A DNA stretch of 64,000 bases from Bolinopsis microptera (Eukaryota > Ctenophora > Tentaculata > Lobata > Bolinopsidae). Below are positions 20,609 through 38,808 of the stretch, piece after piece. The DNA lies in assembly GCF_026151205.1 (NCBI RefSeq), contig NC_087082.1:15533365-15597364 (forward strand), given 5' to 3'. How positions within the stretch are numbered: position 1 is the stretch's first letter; each line of letters begins with the position of its first letter. The translations under genes and the position numbers were made by a program. Under the pieces are notes generated by a model, which saw only the letters and a list, made by a program, of their open reading frames with translations, was not told the origin of the DNA and did not search any database.

Positions 20609-23600
20609 TCAAGTTTCGACTTGTTTGGGTCGTTCAACTCGTTTCCTTCTCCTAGTCGGGTCCTCGCCCCTGCAAATGATTAATTTTAGCAGTTGATGGT
20701 AGTAATTTAATGTACTGTGATCTGGTTCCAATTCCAGACACCAGGACAAAATCGCAGCGATATATAATTGAGATTCGCGGCAAACAATCGCAATTACCGA
20801 TAACATCTCCACTACAAAACCTTTACCTGATGTAAGTGTTCATGATGAACTGGAAGGTAGCCAACTGTTGTCTGGAAGGGGCCCGGATATAAGGCGGTGC
20901 TGGCAAGGGCCCAGGCAGATGTATTTCTTCTTCCAGCTCAAATGTGTCCGGCATGTTGACGGGAGACGTTGGGGGCGCTCCAAACTCACCTCCTAGGGTT
21001 TCGTGCACCTAAACATTTTTTAAATTGTGTGACTATATTCTTACTGAGTAATTCTTACTTAGTAGTATTGAATAATCAAAATTAAGTAGACACTACAACG
21101 ACAATGTAGTGTAGTGATGAAAAATACACAGACAGAAACGGCAACCAACTCCACCTTACCAAGTGATGGTGAGACAGGTCAAGGTTTGAAGCTTTAAGAA
21201 GCTCCTCTTCGTTCATAAGATGGTGAGTAGTCGTAGTAGCGGAAGAAACTGCCTGTATGATAGGGAAAATGTTAGCTAGAACTGAATAAAAGCTATGGTA
21301 AAGGGGTTGTGGTGAATTTAGTACAGAATTTAATACAGACAGACCTTAGTATTTTTTGACGAGAACCCTAAAAGTGCCAGAAATGTAAAATCACAGTTTA
21401 ATATAATAAAATTAATATATATTGTTTAAAAACGAACTCTATCAACCTTAGATCTACGGTACCTGATGTTGTTGAGCGCAGTTCAGAATATTGGTGACAT
21501 GTTGAGAGGTGTTGTGCATGCAACTACTCTGTTTGTGCTGCTTTGAGCTGTGGTGCTCGTGTTTGTGATGTCGAGAATACTGTTGCTGCTGCGGTTGCTG
21601 AGCGGTCGATTGTGGTTGCTGAGTTGCTGTTGGTGGTAGCTGACCAACTTGTTGCTGTGGGGCAGCTGGGGTCGGGGTATGTTGACCTTGAGACGTAGTC
21701 ACCTGCTGTTATTAACAGTTAGGGATTATTATAGCGAATACACAAAAGAGAATTGTACTAATCCAGTTCACCCCCCCCCCCCATCCCCTTCTTACACCCC
21801 TCCCTTCCTCCAACCGACAGAAAGCTAACCTGGTGATGTTGCACGTGCTGCTGAATAATCAGAAAGCTAACCTGGTGATGTTGCACGTGCTGCTGAATAA
21901 TCAGAAAGCTAACCTGGTGATGTTGCACGTGCTGCTTAATAATCATAAAGCTAACCTGGTGATGTTGCACGTGCTGCTGAATAATCAGAAAGCTAACCTG
22001 GTGATGTTGCACGTGCTGCTGAATAATCAGAAAGCTTACCTGGTGATGTTGCACGTGCTGCTGAATAATCAGAAAGCTTACCTGGTGATGTTGCACGTGC
22101 TGCTGAATAATCAGAAAGCTTACCTGGTGATGTTGCACGTGCTGCTGAATAATCAGAAAGCTTACCTGGTGATGTTGCACGTGCTGCTTAATAATCAGAA
22201 AGCTAACCTGGTGATGTTGCACGTGCTGCTTAATAATCAGAAAGCTAACCTGGTGATGTTGCACGTGCTGCTGAATAATCAGAAAGCTAACCTGGTGATG
22301 TTGCACGTGCTGCTTAATAATCAGAAAGCTAACCTGGTGATGTTGCACGTGCTGCTTAATAATCATAAAGCTAACCTGGTGATGTTGCACGTGCTGCTGA
22401 ATAATCAGAAAGCTAACCTGGTGATGTTGCACGTGCTGCTGAATAATCAGAAAGCTTACCTGGTGATGTTGCACGTGCTGCTGAATAATCAGAAAGCTTA
22501 CCTGGTGATGTTGCACGTGCTGCTGAATAATCAGAAAGCTTACCTGGTGATGTTGCACGTGCTGCTGAATAATCAGAAAGCTTACCTGGTGATGTTGCAC
22601 GTGCTGCTTAATAATCAGAAAGCTAACCTGGTGATGTTGCACGTGCTGCTGAATAATCAGAAAGCTTACCTGGTGATGTTGCACGTGCTGCTGAATAATC
22701 AGAAAGCTTACCTGGTGATGTTGCACCGTGCACGTGCTGCTTAATAATCAGAAGGCTAACATGGTGATGTTGCACGTGCTGCTGAATAATCAGAAAGCTA
22801 ACCTGGTGATGTTGCACGTGCTGCTGAATAATCAGAAAGCTTACCTGGTGATGTTGCACGTGCTGCTTAATAATCATGTTGTAATATGGTATTTAGAGAT
22901 ATCTTTTAGGATATCTTAGTTTTAGTATAACGTTTAAGGGACGTAGAATTTAGTATGTATTTCCGGGTATATAATAACCAATGTTTTTATATGTTCGTAT
23001 TTGGGAGTTACACATTTTGAGTGTAAGTCGGTTGGCTGGCAGAACTACTGTCAGACTAACTGTCTGAAACGAGCCGTCCGCTCACTTTGCACCTGACTTA
23101 CAGCCAGGCCTGTGGTTGGTCCTCGCGACCACAGCGTGACTGCTAGTGGAGTGCTCATTGGCGAGACGGCGTGTCACGTGGTACAAGCAGATGCGTTGTG
23201 CCGTCACGCAGTGTGGCGTGACGAAGTTTTGAGAGTATACCCGGAGAGCCGGATGTGGAGAGCTCACTTCTTAGTTGCCCCTTAATCATTTTAAGGGATT
23301 CGAATTGACGGTAGCCAGTCTTACTGAGCACTACCATTTGTGATTAGACACGTCGTGTGATCTATTAGTCACGTCAATCGCTTGGAGCGAACACTTGGAA
23401 GTTTTATCTGTTGACGTTCACTTTGTATTACTTTTCCTTTTAATTAATTATTCATTTTAATATACTCGTTTCATTTCTACCTTACGGTACGCCCTGCCGT
23501 TCGTGCTTCGTGACTAGAGCTTGACTAGCATACACTAAATACCAAGAGAACTCCGTTTTCTATATCTGGAGGCCACTTTTAGTGTTGCTATTTTTGCTCG

Positions 23601-26600
23601 TAATCCTTCTAGTATCACCTATATTCAGTATAGTTTCGTTTAAGATCCTAACGTTTCTCATTTGATAAGCTAAGTTCGGTGTACATCGCAGTGCAGAAGA
23701 ATTACGTGGAGATTGTTCGAGATCTTCAGTACTTCCTACTAGACTTGGTAAGTGTTGCTACACATTTTGTAGTACCTGTATATTCCAGTTGAGTGCGATC
23801 GTTTTGACGAGCACCTAGTTTACAGCCGCTTGTAGACTTCAGTACGTTATTACCTAGTTTGTCAGTGAGATTTGCGTAGTTTTAGCAACCTTACTTTTCG
23901 TACATCTACTCAGGAGTGATAGACGTAGAAGTTACAGTTCCAGTAAAGCAAAGTAAAGTCTTGACTAGAAGATTTTCCAGCAACGTGAAGAGTACGCCTG
24001 TTCCTGTACTTATCTACTCTATTTGTAAGTGTACTTTTACATTTAGATTCACTTTTTAGCATGTGTGATAGTTATACAGCTGAAATGGAGTGGGCGACGT
24101 TGATTTTAGAAAGGGGTAAGATTCAGTCTAGCATTGATGAAATAATGAAGGAGATAGATGGTTTAGATCCTGGTGCAGATAGCAATAGCATTTCCGAATT
24201 AGAAGATAAGTTGAAGGACCTACATTCAGCTTTAGAATGCCTGCAGGATAAGATTGATAATGCACGGCCTAAGCCAGTTAGCACAGTTACTAACGCCCCT
24301 CCAGCTAGTTCTAGCAGTAGATTTCAAGAGAACGTGCACGTTATGAATCCTGTTATTAAATCCGAGCAGGTTCAGTTTAGAAACGCGAACACCGAGGATG
24401 ATTTTGGTAACAGTATTATAACCCCATTGAATAGTTCAGTAGCTGGTCCACATTTGACAGGTGCCAGGCCTCCCAAGCCTCCTTATTTTGAAACTGGATC
24501 TAATTTCATCAAATTTGCCAGGCGATTCAAGGAGCATTTGATTCTATGTGGGCATAGTGGTGGTTCGGATGTTAGTACGTACATGTTGTCATACATTCGT
24601 TGTGAATCCACTTGGGAAACACTGCAGAAAGTCTCTCTCAGGCCGGAAGAGAAATGCAATATCGATCTTCTCGTTAAGCGATACTCAGAGGAGATGTTTC
24701 CTTCTACTCAATCTTGGGCCTTTAGAACTGAGCTCATGTCGTTGCGTCAGTTACCTAGTGAGAACCTCCAGCAGTTCATTGCACGTATAGAGGAGCTTGC
24801 TTTGAAAGCTGGGTATGACTGCGAGTCTAAAAGGGACGAGAGTTGTATGCATGTTCTGGTTGTAGGAGCTCGTGACATAGCTGTAAGGACTAAGCTTTAT
24901 GAGTCCCAGTTACATTCCTATAGTGAGGCGGTTAAACTAGCAATCCACACTGAGCGTATAGCGTTAGCTGTTGGTGGTGAACCAGGTGGTTTCACTCAGG
25001 CCCCGGATACGATTTTCGCTGTAAATAATTCTGAATTAAATGGCCAGAGAACTAGAGTTGCAGCACCTGGGCAAAATCGGGACCGTGTTATGACGGACAC
25101 TAGGCAGGAGATTTATCGTCCTGAATGTCCTCCTTCCCAGTCGGGAGTTAACCAGCACACTGGCCATTCATGGACTCCTAATCTAGTTAGCAATAGTTTT
25201 AGGGGTGGTATGAGGAATGATGATCGTAGAAACCCGCCTGGTCAATCACGTTATCAGCCAGCTCGAAATTACGTGGGTAGTTCGAGTAATCGGGGATCAC
25301 GTAATGTCCGCCCCCAGTTAGAAGGTTGTTGGGAGTGTGGTGATAGTGAGCATTTTCAGAGAAACTGTCCGAGCAGATTTGCTGGGAATAGAGTTAGATA
25401 TCAGGACAGAGGGTCTGCATATCAGAATGGTCATGGCCAGCATCGTGGGAACAGAGCATATAGACCTCGAAATCAGGGGCCTTTAAACTTCTAAAGGGTG
25501 GCCCTAGATTTAAAAGGAGGTCACCCGCGGTCAAAAACACACGTTACTATGAAGATTGTAACGAGATTGGTGGCAGTAAGGGAAACTGCATTTTGGTTGG
25601 AGGAAATTGTGCGGGTAGATCAGCAAATTTCTTCGTGGATACGGGATCATCCATTTCTATAGTTGCTGAATCATTTGTCAGATTTATAGATAAGTTTGAA
25701 AAGGTTGTATCGTGTAATCTCAAGCTTAAGTCTTTTTCGGGTAATGACATAAAAACTTTCGGTCAGATTAAGCTTCCAGTGGTTATTGCCGGAAAATCTT
25801 TTGAACACACGTTAGTTGTTTCTGAATTTCATGAGGCAGAGGTTCTGATAGGCATGGATTTGATGTTTGATCAGGGGATCAATATTAATGCCAGGGATAG
25901 ATTACTGTATACTAACAAGGGTTCATCGTGTTTTAGAACACCCCCTAAACCCACTAAGCGCTGCATGAAGGTAGTATGCAATGAAACAGTAATTATACCA
26001 CCTCTCTCGGGCACTCATATACAAGGCAAATTGCTGCGACCTAGAAGTCAACGTGATGATGTTTATGGACAGTTAGAACCTCATATTAACACGGTTGTAG
26101 GCACTGGCATATTCACAGCGCACTCTCTCATACGGTCTGAGGACAACATGGTCCCTGTTAGAGTCATGAATCCTACAGATAAGCCTGTGAAGATAAGTAA
26201 GAGAACCTGGCTGGGCAAGATGAAGCCAGTAGAGTTTGGTGAGCGAGTGATGAGAGTAACCTGTGAAACGGTTAATGCGATATCATCTGATTGTTCAGTG
26301 CCAGAGGTGAGCAAGCTAGCTGACGAGGAGCCGCTAGTTAAGGAATGGGATAGAGAGAGTCTTTTCAAGCAGTTAAAGTTAGACGAGTTGAAGATTAGCG
26401 AGGAAGACAAGAATGATCTTCGAGAGACTGTGTGGGAGTATAGAACCGTTTTCTCGAGTGGAGAGCATGATTTAGGTTGTTGTAATTTCTTTGAGGCACA
26501 TCTCCAGCTCAAGGATAACTATAAGCCTAGATGGGTTCCATCGAGAAGGATTCCGTTTAAGCAGCAGCCGGAAATGGATAGACAGATTAGAGGTTTGCTT

Positions 26601-29600
26601 AGATCGGGTGTAGTTGAGGAATGCCCTGACCACTCTAATTTTAATTCTCCCCTTTTCCTGGTGCCATCAGGAGATCGCTCTAGATTAGTTGCGGATCTGA
26701 GAATGGTAAATTTAGAGCTTCAGGATGATTTGATGGAGCTGCCTAACTTGAACCACATTTTAGACAAAGTGGGCGATAAGAATCTGTATTCGACAGTGGA
26801 TTTGAGTAAATCTTTTCACCAGGTTCCGTATACCAAGGAATCCAGGCATGTCACGGCGTTCATGCACAATCAGAAACGGTATCAGTTTGCTAGAATGGTC
26901 ATGGGCCTGAAATCTAGTTCAGCTACGTTTACTAGAATGGTCATGCGGTTGATAAACGGTCTGGGTATATCAGATGCGTTAGCATTCTTCATAGATGATT
27001 TACTGATATTCACGCGTGATGTAAAATCTCACATTCAGATACTGTCAGTACTCTTTGCTCGTCTTAAGTTGGGTAATCTGAAACTAACACCTCGTAAGTG
27101 CAGATTTTTACGTGAGGAGGTTGAATATGTCGGTATTACTCTAACTAAGGAAGGAGTCAGGATGAACGACTCTCGTATAGAGCATATTAAGAGTCTAGAA
27201 CCTCGCAGTAATAGAGCTGAATTGCAATCAGTTTTAGGCATGTTGAATTATTCCAAGAAGTTCTGCAAGGGATATTCCGAGATAGCACGTCCTCTCTATG
27301 CGTTACTTCGTAAGAACAAGGTATTCGAGTGGACCGAGGATTGCCAGATTGCATTTCAGAAGTTACGTGACATGTTGATATCTAGTCCTGTCCTAGCATT
27401 TCCGGAGGTTAGTGATCCGGAAAATAGTTATGAGGTAACTTTGGATGGTTCTAAACACGCATTTGGTGGTACTTTGACTCAGTGGATCAAGGGTAAGAGG
27501 AGGGTAATTGCGTACTTTTCTCGTAAGGTTCCGGACCACAAGCGGATATGGCCGCAAACTCAGATTGAATTTGAGACTTTATATCAGACTCTGAAACATT
27601 TCTCGGTTTACTTACGTGGCGTTAAAAACTTCACGGTTATCACAGATTGTCTGCCACTCTTGAATATCACGACAATATTTTCTAAAATGTCGTCTTCGGT
27701 CATCAGGAAGCTTCAAGAGCTTGCTAACTATACTTTTACCATGAAGCATATCTCGGGGAAGAGTAACCAGATGTGTGATGGACTTAGTCGTTATAAGTAT
27801 CAGGTTTATGGTAAATCTCGAGAAAATGTTGCGAGCATTGGTCATAGTTCCACTTTTAGTCTTGATGCTGCGTTAGAGGGAGTAAACCGGGTGAGACGTG
27901 AACATTATAGATGTAAACACCCGATACTGTTTAAGAGGATGCAGGTACCAGTTAGCAGCGAGACTGTGGTTGATGATGATTGCAGTAATCTGATTGAGGA
28001 ATCTTGCAATGAGATGAGTGTTGAGGACAGTATGATTCCGGGGTTCTTGTTTGATGAAAATAGTGAAGACCCTAGTATTGTAAGCATTGTTCAGATTACG
28101 CCTGAGGTTGATAGCCGTCATTGCAATTGTAGTCTTACCCAGGCTGATCCTATTCCTACAGAGGAAGCATCAGTAGTGGAAATGGTTTCAGCGGTTACTA
28201 GTGATGTAAGCTCACTAGAGAGAGGGGTCAAATTTCTTAATCCTACCAATGAGCAGCTTAAACAGGCTCAGAAGGATGATGATATTTTAAACCAGGTCTA
28301 CAGTTGGGTTACCAAGGGTGAGAAACCTGTTGCCATTCAGACTAGTAAAATACCTCAGGAACTGTTGAGTTATTGGAAACAGTTTGATCTTATAAGTATC
28401 AAGGACGGGATACTTAAGAGACGTTGGACTGAAGTGAGGGATCCGGAGGGAAGTAGAGAGTTGATCATAGTCCCCGAATCCTTGCATGAATCTGTCCTGG
28501 ACATGGTGCACAACCAGGAGACCGCACATGCTGGAGTAGAAAATTGTCTTGAGGTCTGTAAACGACATTTCTACTGGCCGAAAATGGGTGAATGTTTCAA
28601 ATTGTGGATCGCAGCATGTTGCAAGTGTGCAGCTAGTAAGCCACCTCAGGCGTACAATAAGGCACCCCTCAAGCACATATTATTCCACTCCTTTAACTCA
28701 GCAATTTGTTTCGATCATATAGTTCCTGAGAAGGTTGGTGCTACACCTAGAGGTTATAAATATATTTTGACTATAACTGATTGTTGGTCAAATTATGTGG
28801 TAGCTATTCCTACTAAGACCCAGACAGCTAAGGAGAGCGTGTCCTTGATTCGTAGGTTTTGGATTGATCGTTTTGGCCAGCCTAGGTTCATGATGGCTGA
28901 TAATCATCCGGGGTTTAGAGCTAAGTATTTCGAGACCATAGCTCAAGCATTAGATTGCAAGTACATTCATGGCCAACCGTACGTTTCTCGTAGTACAGGT
29001 AGAGTTGAGAGAGCTAACCGTCGGTTGAATACTGCACTGAGAACCAGCTTACCACCGGGACGCTACCAGGATTGGGATCTTTGGTTATCTAGAGTAGTCT
29101 TTGTACTCAACTCATTGCGGAATCGGCACACAGGTTATTCTAGCAACAGGTTGGTGTTTGGTCGTGAGTTAAACACACCGTTAAGCCTGCTAGCTGAGAA
29201 TCGTAAGGATTTCGAGCTAGAGCCTATGAAGGAGAATGAGTTTGATGTTGAAGCATACGAGCTGTACAAGAATCTCAAGTTTATCACCAGGAAGGTGAGG
29301 GTCCAAGCTGAGCGTGATTTTTGCTATGCACAGAGATATCACGATAAACACGTTAAGGGACCATTCTTTGAGGAAGGTGAGGAAGCTTTTGTTTTGATAA
29401 ATTGTCCTAAGCACAAGTTCGGTCCCCGTTGGGTTGGCCCGTATAAGATCTCTAGGAAGATAAACGATCACTTGTACTGTCTAGATTTGCCTGATGGAGA
29501 GAAGAAGGTGTTTAACATTGGTAAGTTAAAACGATATGTCAGGAACAGATTTTCTAAGAAACTAGAGACTAGTCCTACAGTGCCGAAAACTGTGAGCAAG

Positions 29601-32600
29601 GAAGCTGAGTTGAAAATGGAATCATCGGACCGATTTGTAGATTATTCCGATAGTGACAGTGAAGAGGAGATAGATTTTCAACTGAGAAGAGCACCAGTTG
29701 TAGCAGGGAGAAGAGAGGTTCATCCGAAGAGGTTTCGTCCGGAGAGGGATGGTGCAGTTAGCATTCATAAACAACCTAGTTTAAGTTCCACTCCTAGGGT
29801 TGTAAATAGTCCTGCACAACTAGATATGAATTCTACTAATCCTAGTTTTAGTACTGTAACACCTCTCACACATAACATTCCCTCAGGCGATAGTGTAGAA
29901 ACAGTTGATAATTCTGCAGAGTTCTTCACTCCAGCTAGAGAGAGATCGGCCGCTAGAAGATCATCGAGTCCGATTGTTAGTGAAGGAACGATAGGTGCTA
30001 ACAGTTTTAGGTCACATGATGCTGAGGAGCACGACATTGACACAACAGGATCGCTTTCTCCTATAGATCTAGGGAGACAGAGCCCTCCGAGGGAGGAGCG
30101 CAGATATAACACTAGGAGACCTGAGGAACGGAGACAACCTGATCGTCTAGGAATCGATAAAGTTAGACTTGTTACGGATGTTCTTATGAAGCTCTTGAAC
30201 CAGTAGAAGTCGGGGAGATGACCTGATAGGGAAGTAACTAATACCTTGGAATCTAGTTTTAGTACAGTAATATCTTACGTATTTAGCTAGGCTTTCCATT
30301 TAGTACTTAGCGGTGATATTAATACCTTACTTAGGCTTAACACGTGTATCTTTCAGAACAGTACTGATAGGGATATTAGGATCTTTACTCGCAACACGAA
30401 CCGTTCAGGGCTGCTTTAGTGGCGGAAACGTAGAAACTTTCGAATTTATTTTGACTTCTTTGTTTGCTCGTCCAGGACGATTTAGAGATCCGATACATCT
30501 CTATCTAATGATGAAGACTCTACACCAAAGACTCTACAACTTGGTGCAAAGAGAAGTATTTGAAGTTTTGGAAAGTTTTGAAAGATTTGTGGAAGTCAAT
30601 TTCAGTTTTAACTTTAGGATTTTGAGGATTTAAATTTAATGCACAGGGTTAGGGCCGTGTATTTTATTTTGAGACTTGACTTATTTTAAGTTTTGGACTT
30701 TTGATGCGTGGGAGCATTGAAATTTAAATTTTGAATAGGGCGATTATTTTATTGTTTTAAAATATTCGAAAAAAATTTTTGGGTAGAGATGTTGTAATAT
30801 GGTATTTAGAGATATCTTTTAGGATATCTTAGTTTTAGTATAACGTTTAAGGGACGTAGAATTTAGTATGTGTTTCCGGGTATTATAATAACCAATGTTT
30901 TTATATGTTCGTATTTGGGAGTTACACATTTTGAGTGTAAGTCGGTTGGCTGGCAGAACTACTGTCAGACTAACTGTCTGAAACGAGCCGTCCGCTCACT
31001 TTGCACCTGACTTACAGCCAGGCCTGTGGTTGGTCCTCGCGACCACAGCGTGACTGCTAGTGGAGTGCTCATTGGCGAGACGGCGTGTCACGTGGTACAA
31101 GCAGATGCGTTGTGCCGTCACGCAGTGTAGCGTGACGAGTTTTGAGAGTATACCCGGAGAGCCGGATGTGGAGAGCTCACTTCTTAGTTGCCCCTTAATC
31201 ATTTTAAGGGATTCGAATTGACGGTAGCCAGTCTTACTGAGCACTACCATTTGTGATTAGACACGTCGTGTGATCTATAGTCACGTCAATCGCTTGGAGC
31301 GAACACTTGGAAGTTTTATCTGTTGACGTTCACTTTGTATTACTTTTCCTTTTAATTAATTATTCATTTTAATATACTCGTTTCATTTCTACCTTACGGT
31401 ACGCCCTGCCGTTCGTGCTTCGTGACTAGAGCTTGACTAGCATACACTAAATACCAAGAGAACTCCGTTTTCTATATCAGAAAGCTAACCTGGTGATGTT
31501 GCACGTGCTGCTGAATAATCAGAAAGCTAACCTGGTGATGTTGCAAGTGCTGCTGAATAATCAGAAAGCTAACCTGGTGATGTTGCACGGGGGGGGGGGG
31601 GGGGGGGGGGGGCCAATGGCATAAAATGGCATAAAATGGCATAAAATGGCATAAAATGGAGACTTTTTCTATGGAGAAAATGGAAAAACCCATGAGTAAT
31701 TCTCCATTTTCTCCATTTTATGCCATGAATTTTGTCAGCTCATAGTAGGCTACTAGATGCTTATACTAGGTTAGTAGAGGCACACTTCAGGCAAACTCAT
31801 AATTACTCAAGCCTAGTGTAAAGTTATTTCTACAGGCTACAGTAGGAGTGAGTAATAGGGGAGAGTAATAGGCACTGAGAAGTGAGACCTACATCCTCGA
31901 AAGTCGAAACAAGCTCGCACTGCAAAGAGGAGGCCTGCCTTCCGAGATCGCATTACCAGGGGGAAGCCTCGAGTCCAAATTTGTGTATCGGGGGTAGGTG
32001 TAGACTTCGATAAACCGAAAAACCAAAAAAATATTTTCGGCTAATAATGAAGAGGGTAGCATGAAACGTGGAGAAAAGTGGTTTTTAGAAAAACTTTGAA
32101 AAATTTAGACTTAGAAAATTTTCGGCCCGAGTCATTTTCGATACGTACCTCTCGTATCGAGAGCTCCCGATTCCGAGCTCGTGTTGCAAAGGGGAGGCCT
32201 GCCTTCCGAGATCGCATTACCAGGGGGAAGCCTCGAGTCCAAAATTGTGTACCGAGGGGTAATTTTCTAAGTCAAAATTTTTCAAAGTTTTTCTGAAAAA
32301 CACTTTTCTCCACGTTTCATGCTACCTTGTTCATTATAAGCCGAAAATATTTTGTCGGTCAAAATTTTTCAAATTTTATCTGAAAACCGCTTTTCTCCAC
32401 GTTTCATGCTACCCTGTTCATTATTTGCCGAAAATATTTTTTCGGTTTTTCGAAGTCCACACCTTCCCCTCGATACACAATTTTGGACACGAGGTAATGC
32501 GATCTCGGAAGGCAGGCCTCCCCTTTGCAACACGAGCTCGGAATCGGGAGCTCTCGATACGGGAGGTACGTATCGAAAATGACTCGGACCGAACATTTTC

Positions 32601-35600
32601 TAAGTCAACATTTTTTCAAATTTTTTCTAAAAACCACTTTTCTCCATGTTTCATGATACCCTGTTCATTATTGGCCGAAAATATCTTTTTTTAAAATAAT
32701 TTTTCTCGAAATTCTAAATTTTTCAGGTTTTCAATGGCATAAAATGGCATAAAATGGAGACTATTTCTATGGAGAAAATGGAAAAACCTATGAGTAATTC
32801 TCCATTTTCTCCATTTTTGCCATTGGCCCCCCCCCCCCCCCCTGTTGCACGTGCTGCTGAATAATCATAAAGCTAACCTGGTGATGTTGCACGTGCTGCT
32901 GAATAATCAGAAAGCTTACCTGGTGATGTTGCACGTGCTGCTTAATAATCAGAAAGCTAACCTGGTGATGTTGCACGTGCTGCTGAATAATCAGAAAGCT
33001 AACCTGGTGATGTTGCACGTGCTGCTGAATAATCAGAAAGCTTACCTGGTGATGTTGCACGTGCTGCTGAATAATCAGAAAGCTTACCTGGTGATGTTGC
33101 ACCGTGCACGTGCTGCTTAATAATCAGAAAGCTAACATGGTGATGTTGCACGTGCTGCTGAATAATCAGAAAGCTAACCTGGTGATGTTGCACGTGCTGC
33201 TGAATAATCAGAAAGCTAACCTGGTGATGTTGCACGTGCTGCTGAATAATCAGAAAGCTAACCTGGTGATGTTGCACGTGCTGCTGAATAATCATAAAGC
33301 TAACCTGGTGATGTTGCACGTGCTGCTGAATAATCAGAAAGCTTACCTGGTGATGTTGCACGTGCTGCTGAATAATCAGACAGCTAACCTGGTGATGTTG
33401 CACGTGCTGCTGAATAATCAGAAAGCTAACCTGGTGATGTTGCACGTGCTGCTGAATAATCAGAAAGCTAACCTGGTGAATGGTGATGTTGCACGTGCTG
33501 CTGAATAATCAGAAAGCTAACCTGGTGATGTTGCACGTGCTGCTGAATAATCTGCTGCTGGGATTGTTGCTGCTGAGTTATGACCGCTGCTACGGACGCC
33601 GGATCACTGCAATTGTGGACTAGAGTTAGTAATTTATTAATTAGAGGCACTATTTTATTTATTATTCAATTTACCGTTGTACTAAGTCGAACCTTAATGT
33701 TTCAACAAACAAACACCGAGACAAGGACAAAAAGAGTGCCACTCCTGAAAATACCCACATATTTTGTTGAGCTATAGTAGTAGTGGTGGTGGTTACTTGA
33801 GTGGTACTGATAACATGCTGAGTAGTTGCAGTTAACTGTTGCTGCACCGTGCTGTTCAGTTGTTGGTGGTCCAGCAAAGATAAGTTGGCTAACTGCTGTT
33901 GGCTCAGCAGGAGCTGGTGGTTGGCCAGGAGTTGGGAGGTATTTGGCATGATGCCAGCCCCTGTTGTCGGTGTGTTGAACATGGCGCTACAAGACGCGGC
34001 AGCAGCAGTTTGGGCGCTGAACAACTGCTGAGTTGCAGCGAGTTGTTGGGCCGCTGTGAACTGCTGGTTGGATAAAAGTTGGGCGTTGTTCAGAATCTGT
34101 TGGCTGTTTAAAAGTTGCTGGTTGTTGAGAAGCTGCTGTTGGGTGGCAAGCAGCTGTTGAGAGTCCATCCTCTCTTTCAGCTTTATCCTGGCTGCTTCAC
34201 TCTCTTCTGTCTTCACTAAATTGTAATCATCCAGAGCATTTTGATACATCCCGAGCTTTTCGTAGGCTGATGCCCGCATCTGAAATGTGTGAATACTTGT
34301 TAGATTAAAGATACAGACTGAAAACGTACTTGTTATTTGAAATTATTAACCGTAGGAGAAAATTCTTAAGTACATCTAATAATAGTTAAATTTAGAAACT
34401 CACCTGTAAAAACTTAGGATGTTTAGGATGTATTGCCAATCCACGGATACAATCCTGGATAACATCAGGCCACATTGATAGCTTCATATTACAGCCTGTT
34501 CTATTTAAGAGAACTGTCAGAGTAAGCTGCTCAAAACTCTCACTGTCTAAACTCTCAATCAGCTGCAGTGCCTCGCTGTATCTTTTAGCTGCTTCTTGGT
34601 ACCGACCTGGTGGGAATTGTCAATTTGAGTTTGCTGTAGCAATCGAGTCAGGTATCGTAGCAACGTATCGAAAACAAAATATTCTATTTTTTAAGATTTG
34701 GCTAACCTGAGAAGAAAGCGTTGTCTCCGGTGTACTTGACAGATAGAGCCTCTTTAACAGTACAGAGAAGAATACCAGTAACCAGCTCAGCATCCTCGGC
34801 TCGGAGACCAACCATGAAGCAGCGAAGTGGACATGACAATGCAAACTGAGCAACCTAAAAAGGTACACTGGGTTTAAAGTAAATTGAAATATATCCGAAT
34901 AATTTATAGCAATTGTGCAGATTTTATGGAAATGAAGCCTTAAATCTCATTGAACACAGTTTAAAGAAGTTATCAAGTTTACCTCTTTCCACTCGCTCTG
35001 GAAGACTTTTCTCCGACACAGTCTTTTGAGGGTTGGAACGTAGCAGCCCTCGGGTGAGCTGTACGTGAACAGACTGGCAACTCGAGCAGCTTGGTGTGCT
35101 GACTCGTTGGCTATTGGTCCTATTTCGGTTGAAGACTCACTTCCGCTACCAATGCCATCCCTGCAAACCTGAAATAAAATTAATCGTACAAGGACTGCTC
35201 TAAAATCAATAATTAGTTCCACGATTGTCACAAATAAAAGGGGAGAAGGACATTGATAAAAAATCATTACAGCAATAACCGAATACAGAATATTTGACAT
35301 ACACCGCCATAGTTTAGAGTTCTATTTGATTGGTGAAAAGAGAAAACAAAAAAGTATAGATTATAACAGGACGATACCATCATCAGTAGATTAATAATCG
35401 GAACCAATAATTTAACATTGAAGCAGCCTAGGTGACACACCAAATCAATCAATTAAATGTCAATTAAATTACCGATCTACACACCCTGTCGAGCGCGGCG
35501 ACAGCGATTATTTCTGGTACTCCCGTATCTTCAAGAAATTCTCTGTAATCGTTCACTCCATCGCCTCGCTCCTGAATCATCAAGAGTTAAAGTAAGACCT

Positions 35601-38600
35601 GGAGAGCGGTAAGTACTTTAAACCATTCTTAAACAATCAATGTTAGAAATGTGAACTTCATTGAATTTTCAAACCTCTGCGTCTTTTGCTCCAGCTGCAA
35701 CTAAAAGTTCTATAAACTGAAGAGCCACATCAAAACAGAGGTGTATTGAAGCCTGGTTCCGAACTATTTCCACTAGAGAGTCCACAATGGCGGTCACAGC
35801 GCCTAGTCCCACTAAATACCTGTAAGTTAACGATACAGCAATATGTAATAACGTGGCTTTGTGAATTGCATAGCATTTGTTACTTTCATAACAACTGAAC
35901 AAAGAAAACTAGCAATAGCTGCGCCGCGCAAATTTCTGCCCGCGCAAGGAGCACTGTTATGGTTGTGGTGACGAATAATGGAGAAGTACCATATATTACC
36001 ATCTATTTGGTCTAGACGTCTCACCAGAAGGCTACATTATAGGGCTCGCCCGATAACTAAACTTAGAAAAGAAAAAAGAGCAACCGGTTTAAAAGACTGA
36101 GGATGTGAAAAACTCACTTTATTATCTGACGGTTAAACATAGATGTAGTTAGAGTATTTGACAGCGTTTTGACAGCCTCCTTCCAAGTCAGCCAACTGCC
36201 TCTGGAATGCGATTGCCTCATACACAGATGAACCAAACAGGGGTATACTTGTGCATCGTGTAAGCCCTGAAGATAGGGGTACAATTTAAGTTAATTTTTA
36301 TTGGCAGTTGCAGTCTGTACCTTAGTTCCATAAAGTATCATATTATTCTTCTCTGAAATTAAGCAATTTGCATTATCAAGCCCAAAATACCCAGTTATTA
36401 ACCTGAACGAGCTCTACAGAACCAATGGCGATGTGAGAAAGGGCCTGACATGCTATCTCTCTCGTTCTTTCTCTTTTGTTGTGGAGCAGAAACCGTAGTC
36501 TCGGCAAAGCCCTACAGGTAATGGCTGCGTACTGCGATAGTAAAATGTGAGTATAACAGTAGTACAATATAAGTATAATATTAGTACAATATAAGTAAAA
36601 TATTAGTACAATATCAGTACAATTTAGTTGCAATGATCAAGTGCACTTAAAACATTTCAAATGATAGAGTTTACATTGTGTATTGTTTAGTCGTTATAAT
36701 TTGGCAGACCTTTTTCTGCTCTAAGTTTCCGTTGGTGAAAATAGCGAGCAGTGCTTCAAGAGCCACACACGTGACATCGTCCGAACTGTGCATCAGTAAC
36801 TTTACCAGAGTGTCACCTGAGAAATTTAGCGGCATTTGAGGACAAAACATCATAAAATTTATAGTATAGTAACATTTTAGTGAGTATTAACTAAAATAAA
36901 TTCTTGCGCCCTCAGTAATAATACTTGTAAAATTCATCAGAAAACAAAACTAAAGATGAAACTCACAAGCACCAGAGTCCAGGACCTCCTGGATACTAAG
37001 TTTGCACATGTACATTACACCCCAGCACGCGTCCCGCAACACTGCCTCATTGTTTGACTTGATCAGCTTGGCGAGTCTTGGCAGACATTCCTTCACCTGG
37101 AGATTTAAAACATGTAATATTGGTAGATAACAAAAGTTAAATAAGTAGAAGAACAAATGGGAGTAAAATTCTAAGAGCATTTAGCAGTTCTAACGAGCTC
37201 TTCTCAAACACAAGGATATAACTTGTGAACTCGGCTAGTATATATGAAACATTTGTCATGGAGTTGTAGAGGGAGTTATGTGCCTCGCCGGGCTAAAGTA
37301 GTGGATGACCTTGCTGTACGGCAAGTTAAACAAGGATCTGAAACTACTAGGTTCCGTACAGACTCAACTCTGCACCCGTGTCAATATGTTCATTATATGC
37401 AAGCCTCTTGATTTATAATGTGATTTTATGTTTTGGGATAGAAACATAAGGTATTTTCGAGAGGTTGAAAACCCCATCTTGTTGGTTACTATTTGTCTAG
37501 TATAAGTAATACTGACATACTTACAATTTCGAATGAGTCAGTGTACTGACAAAGGTTTGACAGTAACCAAGTAGCTGTTTTTATCAAGGACTGTTCTGAT
37601 GTGTTGTTTGACTTGGTGCTCTCACACAGCGAATCTGTGGAAAGTTAATTACATAAAAGTTTAAATTTTAAAATGTTAAATTGACTAGATACATATTATT
37701 GCAGCTACCAAATTGAATGGTAGGACAATTATTTATTAATCACATAGAATACGTCGATTGGAAGGAATAATATACGTCGATGTGGCTCCTATTTGTAAAA
37801 TTATAGCGTTGTGATAATTTTAATCATAAAAAAGTCAGAATCCAAATACCGAGTAATCTGAGAAGTGGAGCGAGCGCGCCCGCGTGGAGTACACAAGAGC
37901 AGTTCTCACAAGCAATATTAGCTAACAACCAGGCGGCCTGTAAGTGTAAGTGTAAGTGTAAGTGTAAGTGTAAGTGTAAGTGTAAACTGTAAGTGTAAGT
38001 GTAAGTGTAAGTGTAAGTGTAAGTGTAAGTGTAAGTGTAAGTGTAAGTGTAAGTGTAAGTGTGTGTATTGTAGAAACAAAAAGTATTATACACGGCTACA
38101 TAATTATATCAATTATACCGAATACTTAATTAATTGATTAGTAAAGGATAATTACATGATCCTGAAGGTCGATGCTGGGAGACTCAAGCAGCAAGGTAGC
38201 AATAGGAACCACTCCAGCATCAATCACAGCACGTGTGTTATCTGCTGACCCGGCGCTGATGTTAGCGAGCGCATTTGCAGCCTCGCTTTGCAACTTCTGG
38301 TCCTCGATGTGGGTCAGGAAACTTGCAAGTAGTGGGACGGCTCCTGCCTGCGGATATTCATTAATGAATACAAGACCGCGAGTAAGGATAAATAACTTGT
38401 AAACCCAGGCCGAAAATACGCTAATTTAATAATTGATTGGGTACCCACCTTGACCACAGCATCGATAACCTGATCACTATCCCATTCGAGCTCCTTAGCA
38501 GGAGCACGTAGTATCTTGCTCACTTTGGACGTGCCACGAAACAGTCTTCTAGGGTCCTTCGACCTGGGACAAATTAATTAAAAGAATGAATCAATTAATC

Positions 38601-38808
38601 ATAATCTTGATCATAGTCCTGCGCCAGCGAATATTTTTCTTCAATTTTATACCAGCTACAATAGGTCAATATATTTTCTTGGAACACCATTAAAATGGGG
38701 ATGTTCATCAAGTAATTGATTGGATAATATTTCATTCCTAATTTCTTACCTAAGATCCTCCATAATCTGGTTGATTCTCTTTCTCAGAGCACGGCTTTTG
38801 GTAGGCAT
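20609..38808 (-). CDS. Importin-alpha-like ARM repeats fused to TPRs and a Gln/His-rich tail (20 exons)
   Basis: Exons, 5' to 3' on the minus strand: 38808-38750, 38563-38449, 38347-38156, 37937-37850, 37634-37525, 37096-36967, 36816-36710, 36531-36403, 36266-36118, 35819-35675, 35571-35485, 35168-34983, 34854-34707, 34606-34404, 34279-33759, 33606-33522, 21702-21463, 21252-21160, 21008-20827, 20669-20609. All phases agree, giving 1009 codons. Residues about 38-437 are ARM repeats most like importin-alpha (AGAVPLL, EAANALANIS, AAWLLANIAC), with WxxxN kept in only some repeats. The N-terminus is short and basic, without a clear importin-beta-binding domain. About residues 545-650 form TPRs (YQEAAKRYSEALQLI, MRASAYEKLGMYQNALDDY). 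Then comes a Gln/His-rich tail ending in RRRKRVERPK. A nuclear transport or chaperone adaptor role is possible. The fusion is unverified; two adjacent genes remain the alternative. Confidence 0.72.
21818..22876 (-). repeat. 42-bp splice-site minisatellite, block 1 (about 25 units)
   Basis: Tandem 42-bp units. On the host gene's minus strand each unit has a 21-nt half encoding QHVQHHQ and ending CACCAG, then a 21-nt half starting GTTAGC or GTAAGC, containing CTGAT and ending ATTATTCAG or ATTATTAAG. About 11 units carry the strong donor GTAAGC. Unit order shows a 10-unit (420-bp) higher-order period, with the rare ATAAAGC variant at units 3 and 13. The block is cut on its right by the LTR retrotransposon at 22877. 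Confidence 0.92.
22877..23563 (+). repeat. 5' LTR
   Basis: Begins TGTTGTAATATGG and ends near TTTTCTAT. It matches 30790-31475 apart from a few substitutions and single-base indels (for example near 22950, 22970 and 23225). The end does not show the usual CA, so the boundary may be off by a few bases. Confidence 0.9.
23567..23584 (+). other. Putative tRNA primer-binding site
   Basis: TGGAGGCCACTTTTAGTG lies about 3 bp after the 5' LTR. It starts TGG, complementary to a tRNA CCA end. I cannot name the tRNA without a search. Confidence 0.6.
24061..25494 (+). CDS. gag: Gag polyprotein of the LTR retrotransposon
   Basis: A 477-residue ORF from ATG 24061. The N-terminal 80 residues look coiled-coil. 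The middle (about 140-300) is a helical, Trp- and Leu-containing region consistent with a retrotransposon capsid domain. The C-terminal third is Arg/Gly/Asn-rich and contains one CCHC zinc knuckle (CWECGDSEHFQRNC, about residues 423-436), which binds genomic RNA in this class. The frame ends TAA at 25492, only four bases after a slippery heptamer. Pol would therefore be made as a -1 fusion with Gag. No stops or frameshifts interrupt the gene. Confidence 0.92.
   Translation: MCDSYTAEMEWATLILERGKIQSSIDEIMKEIDGLDPGADSNSISELEDKLKDLHSALECLQDKIDNARPKPVSTVTNAPPASSSSRFQENVHVMNPVIKSEQVQFRNANTEDDFGNSIITPLNSSVAGPHLTGARPPKPPYFETGSNFIKFARRFKEHLILCGHSGGSDVSTYMLSYIRCESTWETLQKVSLRPEEKCNIDLLVKRYSEEMFPSTQSWAFRTELMSLRQLPSENLQQFIARIEELALKAGYDCESKRDESCMHVLVVGARDIAVRTKLYESQLHSYSEAVKLAIHTERIALAVGGEPGGFTQAPDTIFAVNNSELNGQRTRVAAPGQNRDRVMTDTRQEIYRPECPPSQSGVNQHTGHSWTPNLVSNSFRGGMRNDDRRNPPGQSRYQPARNYVGSSSNRGSRNVRPQLEGCWECGDSEHFQRNCPSRFAGNRVRYQDRGSAYQNGHGQHRGNRAYRPRNQGPLNF
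25482..25526 (+). promoter_or_regulatory. -1 programmed ribosomal frameshift signal (gag/pol)
   Basis: The heptamer TTTAAAC (25482-25488) sits in the Gag frame as T TTA AAC, the classic X XXY YYZ slippery site. A 7-nt spacer follows, then an 8-bp stem: GGGTGGCC (25496-25503) can pair with GGTCACCC (25519-25526), with one G-U pair and a 15-nt loop. The pol frame is -1 relative to gag and is open through this point. Heptamer, spacer and stem all match known -1 signals. Confidence 0.88.
25489..30206 (+). CDS. pol: Pol polyprotein of the LTR retrotransposon
   Basis: An open frame of about 1570 codons in the -1 frame relative to gag, with no ATG needed at its start. Order: aspartic protease (FVDTGSS at 25638), reverse transcriptase with FIDDL in place of YxDD near 26988, RNase H (LDGSKHAFGG near 27440), integrase HHCC zinc domain (about 28505-28635) and the D, D, E catalytic residues near 28770 (ITDC), 28900 (ADNH) and 29005 (GRVERA). 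A GPY/F-like module (GPYKISRKI) follows near 29435. The C-terminal 200 residues are Ser/Arg-rich and unassigned. No inactivating change is visible. The protein would drive reverse transcription and integration. Confidence 0.92.
30207..30789 (+). other. Retrotransposon 3' non-coding region with polypurine tract
   Basis: Between the pol stop and the 3' LTR. It ends in a purine-rich TGGGTAGAGA directly before 30790, the expected plus-strand primer. A 106-codon ORF here (30313-30633) lacks an ATG start and any family signature, so I do not call an envelope gene. Confidence 0.7.
30790..31475 (+). repeat. 3' LTR
   Basis: Direct copy of the 5' LTR, 686 bp, about 99% identical by eye, followed by ATCA and then minisatellite sequence. 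Confidence 0.9.
31479..31588 (-). repeat. 42-bp splice-site minisatellite, block 2 (short remnant)
   Basis: About 2.6 units of the 42-bp repeat stranded between the LTR retrotransposon (left) and the hairpin-ended element (right). One unit has CAAGTG in place of CACGTG. All donors here are of the GTTAGC type. Confidence 0.9.
31589..32842. mobile_element. Non-autonomous hairpin-ended DNA element with 8-bp target duplication
   Basis: A 1254-bp element flanked by TGTTGCAC (31581-31588 and 32843-32850), an exact 8-bp duplication of minisatellite sequence. It starts with about 22 G's and ends with about 16 C's, followed inward by CCAATGGCA and TAAAATGGCA repeats in inverted orientation. Each end can also fold on itself (CTCCATTTTCTCC against GGAGAAAATGG). 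The interior holds inverted copies of a block with GAGGCCTGCCTTCCGAGATC. An 8-bp duplication suggests hAT or a similar superfamily. No transposase ORF. Confidence 0.8.
32843..33552 (-). repeat. 42-bp splice-site minisatellite, block 3 (about 17 units)
   Basis: Continuation of the array up to host exon 16 (33606-33522), whose 3' end is itself a unit (QHVQHHQ, then GTTAGC). It carries the same odd 6-bp insertion (CGTGCA duplicated) and adjacent ACATGG variant seen in block 1 near 22724-22760, so the blocks share a duplicated multi-unit segment. One unit has a GTGAATGGTG junction defect near 33478. Confidence 0.9.
37939..38062 (+). repeat. (GTAAGT)n hexamer microsatellite next to a splice acceptor
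   Basis: About 20 GTAAGT/GTGTAA units with one interruption near 37985. On the host minus strand it reads as (CTTACA)n running straight into the acceptor of exon 4 (start 37937), so the pyrimidine tract and AG of that acceptor are made of satellite. On the plus strand each unit is a consensus 5' splice site. Confidence 0.85.

Follow-up and report, generated by a model that had tools for sequence, protein, structure and literature searches.

The stretch of DNA considered here, a window of 64,000 nucleotides (nt) from the ctenophore Bolinopsis microptera (RefSeq assembly GCF_026151205.1, contig NC_087082.1, positions 15,533,365 to 15,597,364 of the forward strand), carries on its minus strand a gene of 20 exons, encoding a protein with ARM and TPR-like repeats, in which a minisatellite of 42-bp units occupies intron 16. 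Each unit of this array joins the 30 nt that end exon 16 and encode IIQQHVQHHQ to the 12 nt with which intron 16 begins (GTTAGCTTTCTG). Read from its sequence, the array is a multiplication of a genuine 5' splice site (donor), and not a series of alternating microexons and introns as an earlier note on this DNA had proposed. It is quite probable that the donor of the first unit is the one used and that the remainder of the array is spliced out within the 11.8-kb intron.

Once rejoined across two later insertions of transposable elements, the array forms a single minisatellite of 44 units and 1869 nt, with 41 units of 42 nt and three, units 2, 11 and 23, that measure 49 nt because each carries a 7-bp insertion. 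Its blocks were delimited by TRF (21818-22876, 31476-31589 and 32843-33552), the units were numbered in the minus-strand direction, starting at exon 16, and all results concerning retention and reading frame were computed on the rejoined array. The earlier count of about 45 units in three blocks is right as to the blocks, while the number of units becomes 44 on rejoining. Variation among the units is sparse, the commonest changes being at position 33, where T to A turns GTTAGC into GTAAGC, and at position 7, where C to A turns CAG into AAG. Variable positions number 3 of 30 in the exonic part and 4 of 12 in the intronic part (Fisher p = 0.09), and no selection is claimed from this difference. 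The run of variants in units 26-32 is repeated exactly in units 36-42, a sign that whole blocks of units have been duplicated. All 15 genomic occurrences of the exact consensus unit (genome of 264.65 Mb, 232 contigs) fall within this array, and the stretch comprising exons 15 and 16 is single-copy in the one assembly, with no other genomic match. The hexamer CACGTG, an E-box, is present 43 times in the array and 14 times across the rest of the window. These hexamers could be regulatory, but their copies come along with the coding sequence.

The donor 9-mers are CAGGTTAGC in 27 of the 44 units, CAGGTAAGC in 15 and CATGTTAGC in the remaining two. A coding half that ends in CAG and continues into GTTAGC or GTAAGC, as had been described for every unit, is accordingly found in 42 units, those 27 and 15, and is missing from the other two, which have CAT before GT. 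The boundary contained in the unit is that of a real exon, the exon model being backed by a protein of another ctenophore, Mnemiopsis leidyi. Because the array derives from this existing junction between exon 16 and intron 16, its donors go back to an old one and are not newly made introns. The suggestion that tandem duplication here shows how introns are created can be kept as far as the multiplication of splice signals goes, but with donors copied from an old one no new intron has been demonstrated. Beyond the array, intron 16 retains a unique remainder, the existence of which suggests that the intron predates the array; the Mnemiopsis comparison is one of proteins, which cannot show introns. 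With the 12 intronic nt of the unit added to this 115-nt remainder, the ancestral intron 16 would have measured about 127 nt, an ordinary size for the host gene.

The host gene model, on which this derivation rests, has GT-AG borders at all 19 introns and an unbroken reading frame, and the coordinates previously assigned to exons 16 and 17 agree with it. Over the whole protein, the alignment with ACHWQZ_G018100 of Mnemiopsis leidyi (hereafter P0001, a protein cluster of 14 member sequences from one contig) has identical residues in 972 of its 1013 columns. Exon 16 is identical at 28 of 28 residues, and exon 17, encoding the Gln-rich tail, at 56 of 84 columns, nine of them gapped. P0001 has a single QHVQHHQ and passes directly from it to VTTT, precisely as the host gene model predicts. 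The acceptor of exon 17 is of the NAGNAG type (AACAGCAG, 21700-21710); its second AG scores 7.3 and its first 0.02, and the second is also the one that fits the QHHQ/VTTT sequence of Mnemiopsis. In a Pfam search made with a preliminary model of 901 residues, the Arm family was matched at E=1.3e-39, Arm and HEAT matches lying above the cut-offs and TPR matches below them. The host protein thus combines ARM with TPR-like repeats. After Mnemiopsis, its next five matches (EukProt, JGI and ENA) are 38-61% identical and cover 39-78% of the query. A second repeat lies elsewhere in the gene, an array of about 20 copies of a hexamer (CTTACA on the gene strand, 37939-38062) that adjoins the acceptor of exon 4 and forms its upstream tract. 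The AG of that acceptor has no further AG within 49 nt upstream, and an interruption of the hexamer array brings one beyond 49 nt.

Splice-site strength was evaluated with a weight matrix trained on the other 18 introns of the host gene, the real donors being scored leave-one-out and the array donors not. Real donors range from 0.4 to 11.3. In the array, donors score 9.4 (9.37) in the 27 GTTAGC units, 10.7 (10.65) in the 15 GTAAGC units and 7.1 in the two with CAT before GT, and the value of 9.4 already exceeds 17 of the 18 real donors. The acceptors proposed to precede each coding half occur in both of the forms that had been reported, ATTATTCAG in 34 units and an AAG form, ATTATTAAG, in 10, but they are weak. 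At best ATTATTCAG/C reaches 4.2 bits, above 3 of 18 real acceptors, and counting those in the array there are 684 sites as good on the two strands of the window, a density of 5.3 per kb of strand. Scores of the AAG form lie between -1.2 and -1.6. Such microexon acceptors are weak rather than impossible.

The bearing of chance on these two signals was assessed in 264 kb of DNA, namely the window and 200 kb of the same genome, with TRF rows of period at least 20 and at least 2.5 copies, overlapping rows being counted separately. A donor of at least 9.3 together with an acceptor of at least 4.1 on one strand is found in 3 of 52 rows, all of them blocks of this array, and in none of the other 49. 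Among 20,000 random 42-mers made tandem, both signals fall on one strand in 0.2%, and the acceptor alone is matched in 21%. Since the array donor is a copy of the donor of exon 16, its origin by chance is rejected; for the acceptor, as good in 21% of random 42-mers, chance is accepted.

The consequences for the reading frame separate the donors further. When each of the 44 was joined to exon 17, with all of the rejoined array upstream of it retained, the full protein was obtained from donor 1 only. With donor 2 the frame shifts and terminates at residue 894; with any of donors 3-44 it ends at residue 836, on the TAG of unit 2. Since among extended forms of exon 16 the donor of unit 1 alone yields the full protein, transcripts spliced from later donors would be truncated and probably degraded. 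Taken as isolated pieces, the coding halves read QHVQHHQ in 38 of the 44 units, that of unit 1 being the end of exon 16 itself; the six in which this heptapeptide fails comprise three variants of 21 nt (QHVQHHH twice and QHLQHHQ once) and three pieces of 28 nt that shift the frame. The assertion that any splice choice, or full retention, keeps the frame is correct for single 21-nt insertions from 41 of the 44 units and fails for retention at the stop in unit 2.

These results bear directly on the combinatorial ladder put forward in the earlier note, in which the ATTATTCAG acceptors and the CAG/GT donors would include variable numbers of 21-nt QHVQHHQ microexons. The large majority of in-frame heptapeptide halves fits such a ladder, as does the observation that in Mnemiopsis leidyi skipped exons are divisible by three in 76.9% of cases against 37.8% of others (PMC6142364). 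Around the 21-nt halves, however, only the donors are strong, the acceptors being no better than background, and a 21-nt exon without a strong acceptor of its own is unlikely to be defined. Neutrality of frame does not extend to all units, given the three that yield 28-nt pieces. When an invented ladder isoform served as the query of a homology search, P0001 with its single copy was the sole match (E <= 0.001, 1906 candidates). In the CTGAT that had been likened to a branch point, the branch A and the AG within the same unit stand just 8 nt apart, too close for that AG to be served. With weak acceptors, frame breaks of 7 bp, a one-copy protein in Mnemiopsis and donors copied from a junction, the ladder appears very unlikely.

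Several points nevertheless weigh against the use of a single donor with removal of the whole array, and some of them favour a ladder. An intron spanning three units would measure 105 nt (21 + 2 x 42), which is inside the 100-428 nt of the gene's other introns. The nearest AG upstream of an array acceptor is 16 nt away, but three real introns of the host gene have equally short AG-free zones (13, 13 and 16 nt), so that this shortness does not exclude the array acceptors and does not count against them. The 14 members of P0001 may include splice isoforms, in which case the one-copy protein is not proof, and what P0001 indicates is in any event confined to the orthologue, for which splicing with a single copy is suitable; it does not show Bolinopsis to be restricted to that form. 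The score of the array donors is flattered, because intron 13 of the training set is itself CAG/GTTAGC. Finally, the 15 downstream GTAAGC donors (10.65) outscore the GTTAGC donor of unit 1 (9.37).

This last point, together with the premature stops to which donors 2-44 all lead, speaks for a poison switch, whereby competition among 44 donors diverts some transcripts to premature stops, decay sets the level of the protein and the length of the array tunes it. Past unit 17, however, such a switch requires exons that hold whole transposable elements. In addition, nothing here shows conservation or regulation, and a mere side effect of the array would look alike. On the sequence at hand, a switch of this kind would be improbable.

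A further explanation takes the array to have been, or still to be, a translated repeat of 14 residues (IIQQHVQHHQVSFL). The 42-nt unit is indeed open in frame, and on the gene strand 21758-22747 remains open for 329 codons (342 on the other strand). This openness, however, follows from the make-up of the unit, 30 coding nt and 12 nt without a stop, and the 7-bp insertion in unit 2 stops the frame at residue 836. The peptide VSFLII was looked for in Mnemiopsis P0001 and none was found. Translation of the array, past or present, would therefore be barely credible as its explanation.

A different role for the array would be recursive splicing, in which CACCAG/GT[T/A]AGC acts first as an acceptor and then as a donor, intron 16 is removed stepwise and the mRNA is left unchanged, the array being tolerated or even helpful. 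AG directly precedes GT at the donor in 42 of the 44 units, with donors of 9.4 or 10.7, and the intron concerned measures 11.8 kb where the others range from 100 to 428 nt. Recursive sites of Drosophila are described as (Y)nNCAG/GTAAGT (PMC5126111). Any recursive path leaves the same mRNA, and this would explain both the harmless growth of the array and its uptake of two transposons. As an acceptor, CACCAG/G scores 5.9 in 38 units, 4.7 in two, 6.1 in one and 9.3 in unit 2. The last exceeds 14 of 18 real acceptors, but the prevailing 5.9 exceeds just 5 of 18, and the tract before the AG (GTGCAACATCAC) is broken by purines and is not a strong pyrimidine tract. On the two strands of the 200-kb control DNA, eleven AG/GT sites of equal quality were found (thresholds 5.8 and 9.3), a further one lies at the donor of exon 14 of the host gene, and the AG before the array donor may be mere inheritance from the end of the exon. 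Stepwise removal is thus improbable, and it is a little harder still to credit the more specific proposal that expansion of the donor by the minisatellite would have produced some forty product-neutral recursive points, each with an exon of zero length (AG/GT).

The two elements that interrupt the array (Table 1) lie between target duplications, ATCA in one case and TGTTGCAC or TGTTGCACG in the other, which are themselves array sequence, and joining their flanks gives only units of 42 or 49 nt. As the target duplications are array sequence, the array is earlier than both insertions and was continuous when they arrived. The larger element has paired long terminal repeats (LTRs), a target duplication and the order reverse transcriptase, RNase H, integrase; Pfam recovers RVT_1, RNase H and integrase domains, with gag and protease matches below the cut-offs. 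From the domain order and a Tf2-1-like domain match it is probably a Ty3/gypsy element. Its LTRs measure 690 and 689 nt (3 nt less when cut at the target duplication) and differ by 2 substitutions and 3 one-base indels; the end of the element was taken as 31475, the 690/689-nt cut running 3 nt into the target duplication. Of 140 candidate places for this LTR family 40 were scored, all with 97-100% identity and two of them this element's own. Its long open frames, gag-like and pol, occupy 23989-25494 and 25464-30206. The smaller element belongs to a multi-copy family, for which 40 of 1770 candidate places were scored. It contains an internal two-copy repeat of 87 bp, and another copy of the family (contig C6, 11386838-11389840) gives serial matches 246 bp apart, as if internal units expand.

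Table 1. Features of the host gene, the donor array and its insertions, in positions of the window.
Feature	Position	Strand	Remarks
Host gene, coding span	20609..38808	-	20 exons, 1009 residues; ARM repeats, TPR-like repeats and Gln/His-rich tail
Exon 17	21463..21702	-	Entered at second AG of AACAGCAG/GTG
Intron 16	21703..33521	-	11,819 nt; remaining 18 introns 100-428 nt
Unique remainder of intron 16	21703..21817	-	115 nt
Array block adjoining exon 17	21818..22876	-	Units 20-44
LTR retrotransposon	22877..31475	+	Antisense to host gene; target duplication ATCA (22873-22876, 31476-31479)
Array middle block	31476..31588	-	Remainder of unit 17 and units 18-19
Inverted-repeat (foldback-like) element	31589..32842		Poly-G/poly-C ends; target duplication TGTTGCAC or TGTTGCACG
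Array block adjoining exon 16	32843..33552	-	Units 1-16 plus a portion of unit 17
Array unit 2 (49 nt)	33461..33509	-	7-bp insertion giving TAG stop in retained frame
Array unit 1	33510..33551	-	Presumed functional donor CAG/GTTAGC at 33522/33521
Exon 16	33522..33606	-	Final 30 nt (33551-33522) form exonic part of unit 1

The following course of events would account for the locus. Slippage or unequal exchange would probably have made tandem copies of a 42-bp segment lying over the boundary of exon 16 and intron 16, and the expansion would have taken place in the Bolinopsis line of this ARM/TPR gene, a placement for which Mnemiopsis was compared as protein. Unit 1 would have stayed fused to exon 16 and would supply the donor that is used, while the other 43 units would lie within intron 16 and be removed when exons 16 and 17 are joined. 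As copies of a genuine 5' splice site the units would then be redundant, and the array would presumably have no function of its own. Two transposable elements would have landed afterwards and, with the array, turned an intron of about 127 nt into one of 11.8 kb.

Tandem repeats at splice boundaries have precedents. In duplicated human genes, variable tandem repeats at exon-intron boundaries, with units averaging 30 bp in four copies, have been associated with 27 intron modifications (De Grassi and Ciccarelli 2009, PMC2812944). The present array resembles those repeats, as that work presents them, in being a minisatellite located at such a boundary and potentially able to change splicing, and differs in its 44 units, in its ctenophore host and in the genuine donor inside the unit. 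Fission-yeast introns built of 24-nt tandem repeats have been reported (PMC3629103) and are similar, in the description given there, in that splice-site sequences stand in a row, with AG/GT in nearly every unit here. Unlike that case, the present one probably began with an existing intron whose donor was then multiplied. The ratchet points of recursive splicing (PMC5126111) share with the array an acceptor followed directly by a donor and a long intron, but the consensus quoted for them has a pyrimidine tract, whereas the array consists of tens of tandem copies with a weak tract. Minisatellites also lie in an intron of an earthworm metallothionein gene, although the text consulted does not place them at the donor (PMC12783039). 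Tandem repeats at boundaries that alter splicing are thus known, and the array described here is probably a long ctenophore example in which the element multiplied is an old, working donor.

With its 44 nearly uniform repeats, the array offers a homogeneous instance of the in-place multiplication of a real 5' splice site and poses a testable question, namely how the spliceosome chooses among tens of near-identical donors in a row. RNA-seq and Iso-Seq are reported in the paper on the Bolinopsis microptera assembly (PMC10232365). The frame consequences point to the exon-proximal donor alone being tolerable. Were the recursive interpretation true, expansion of a repeat would be a route to recursive splicing that leaves the product unchanged, in an animal of an early-branching lineage. 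The array also shows how a short intron can become a very long one, first by growth of a repeat and then by the landing of transposons.

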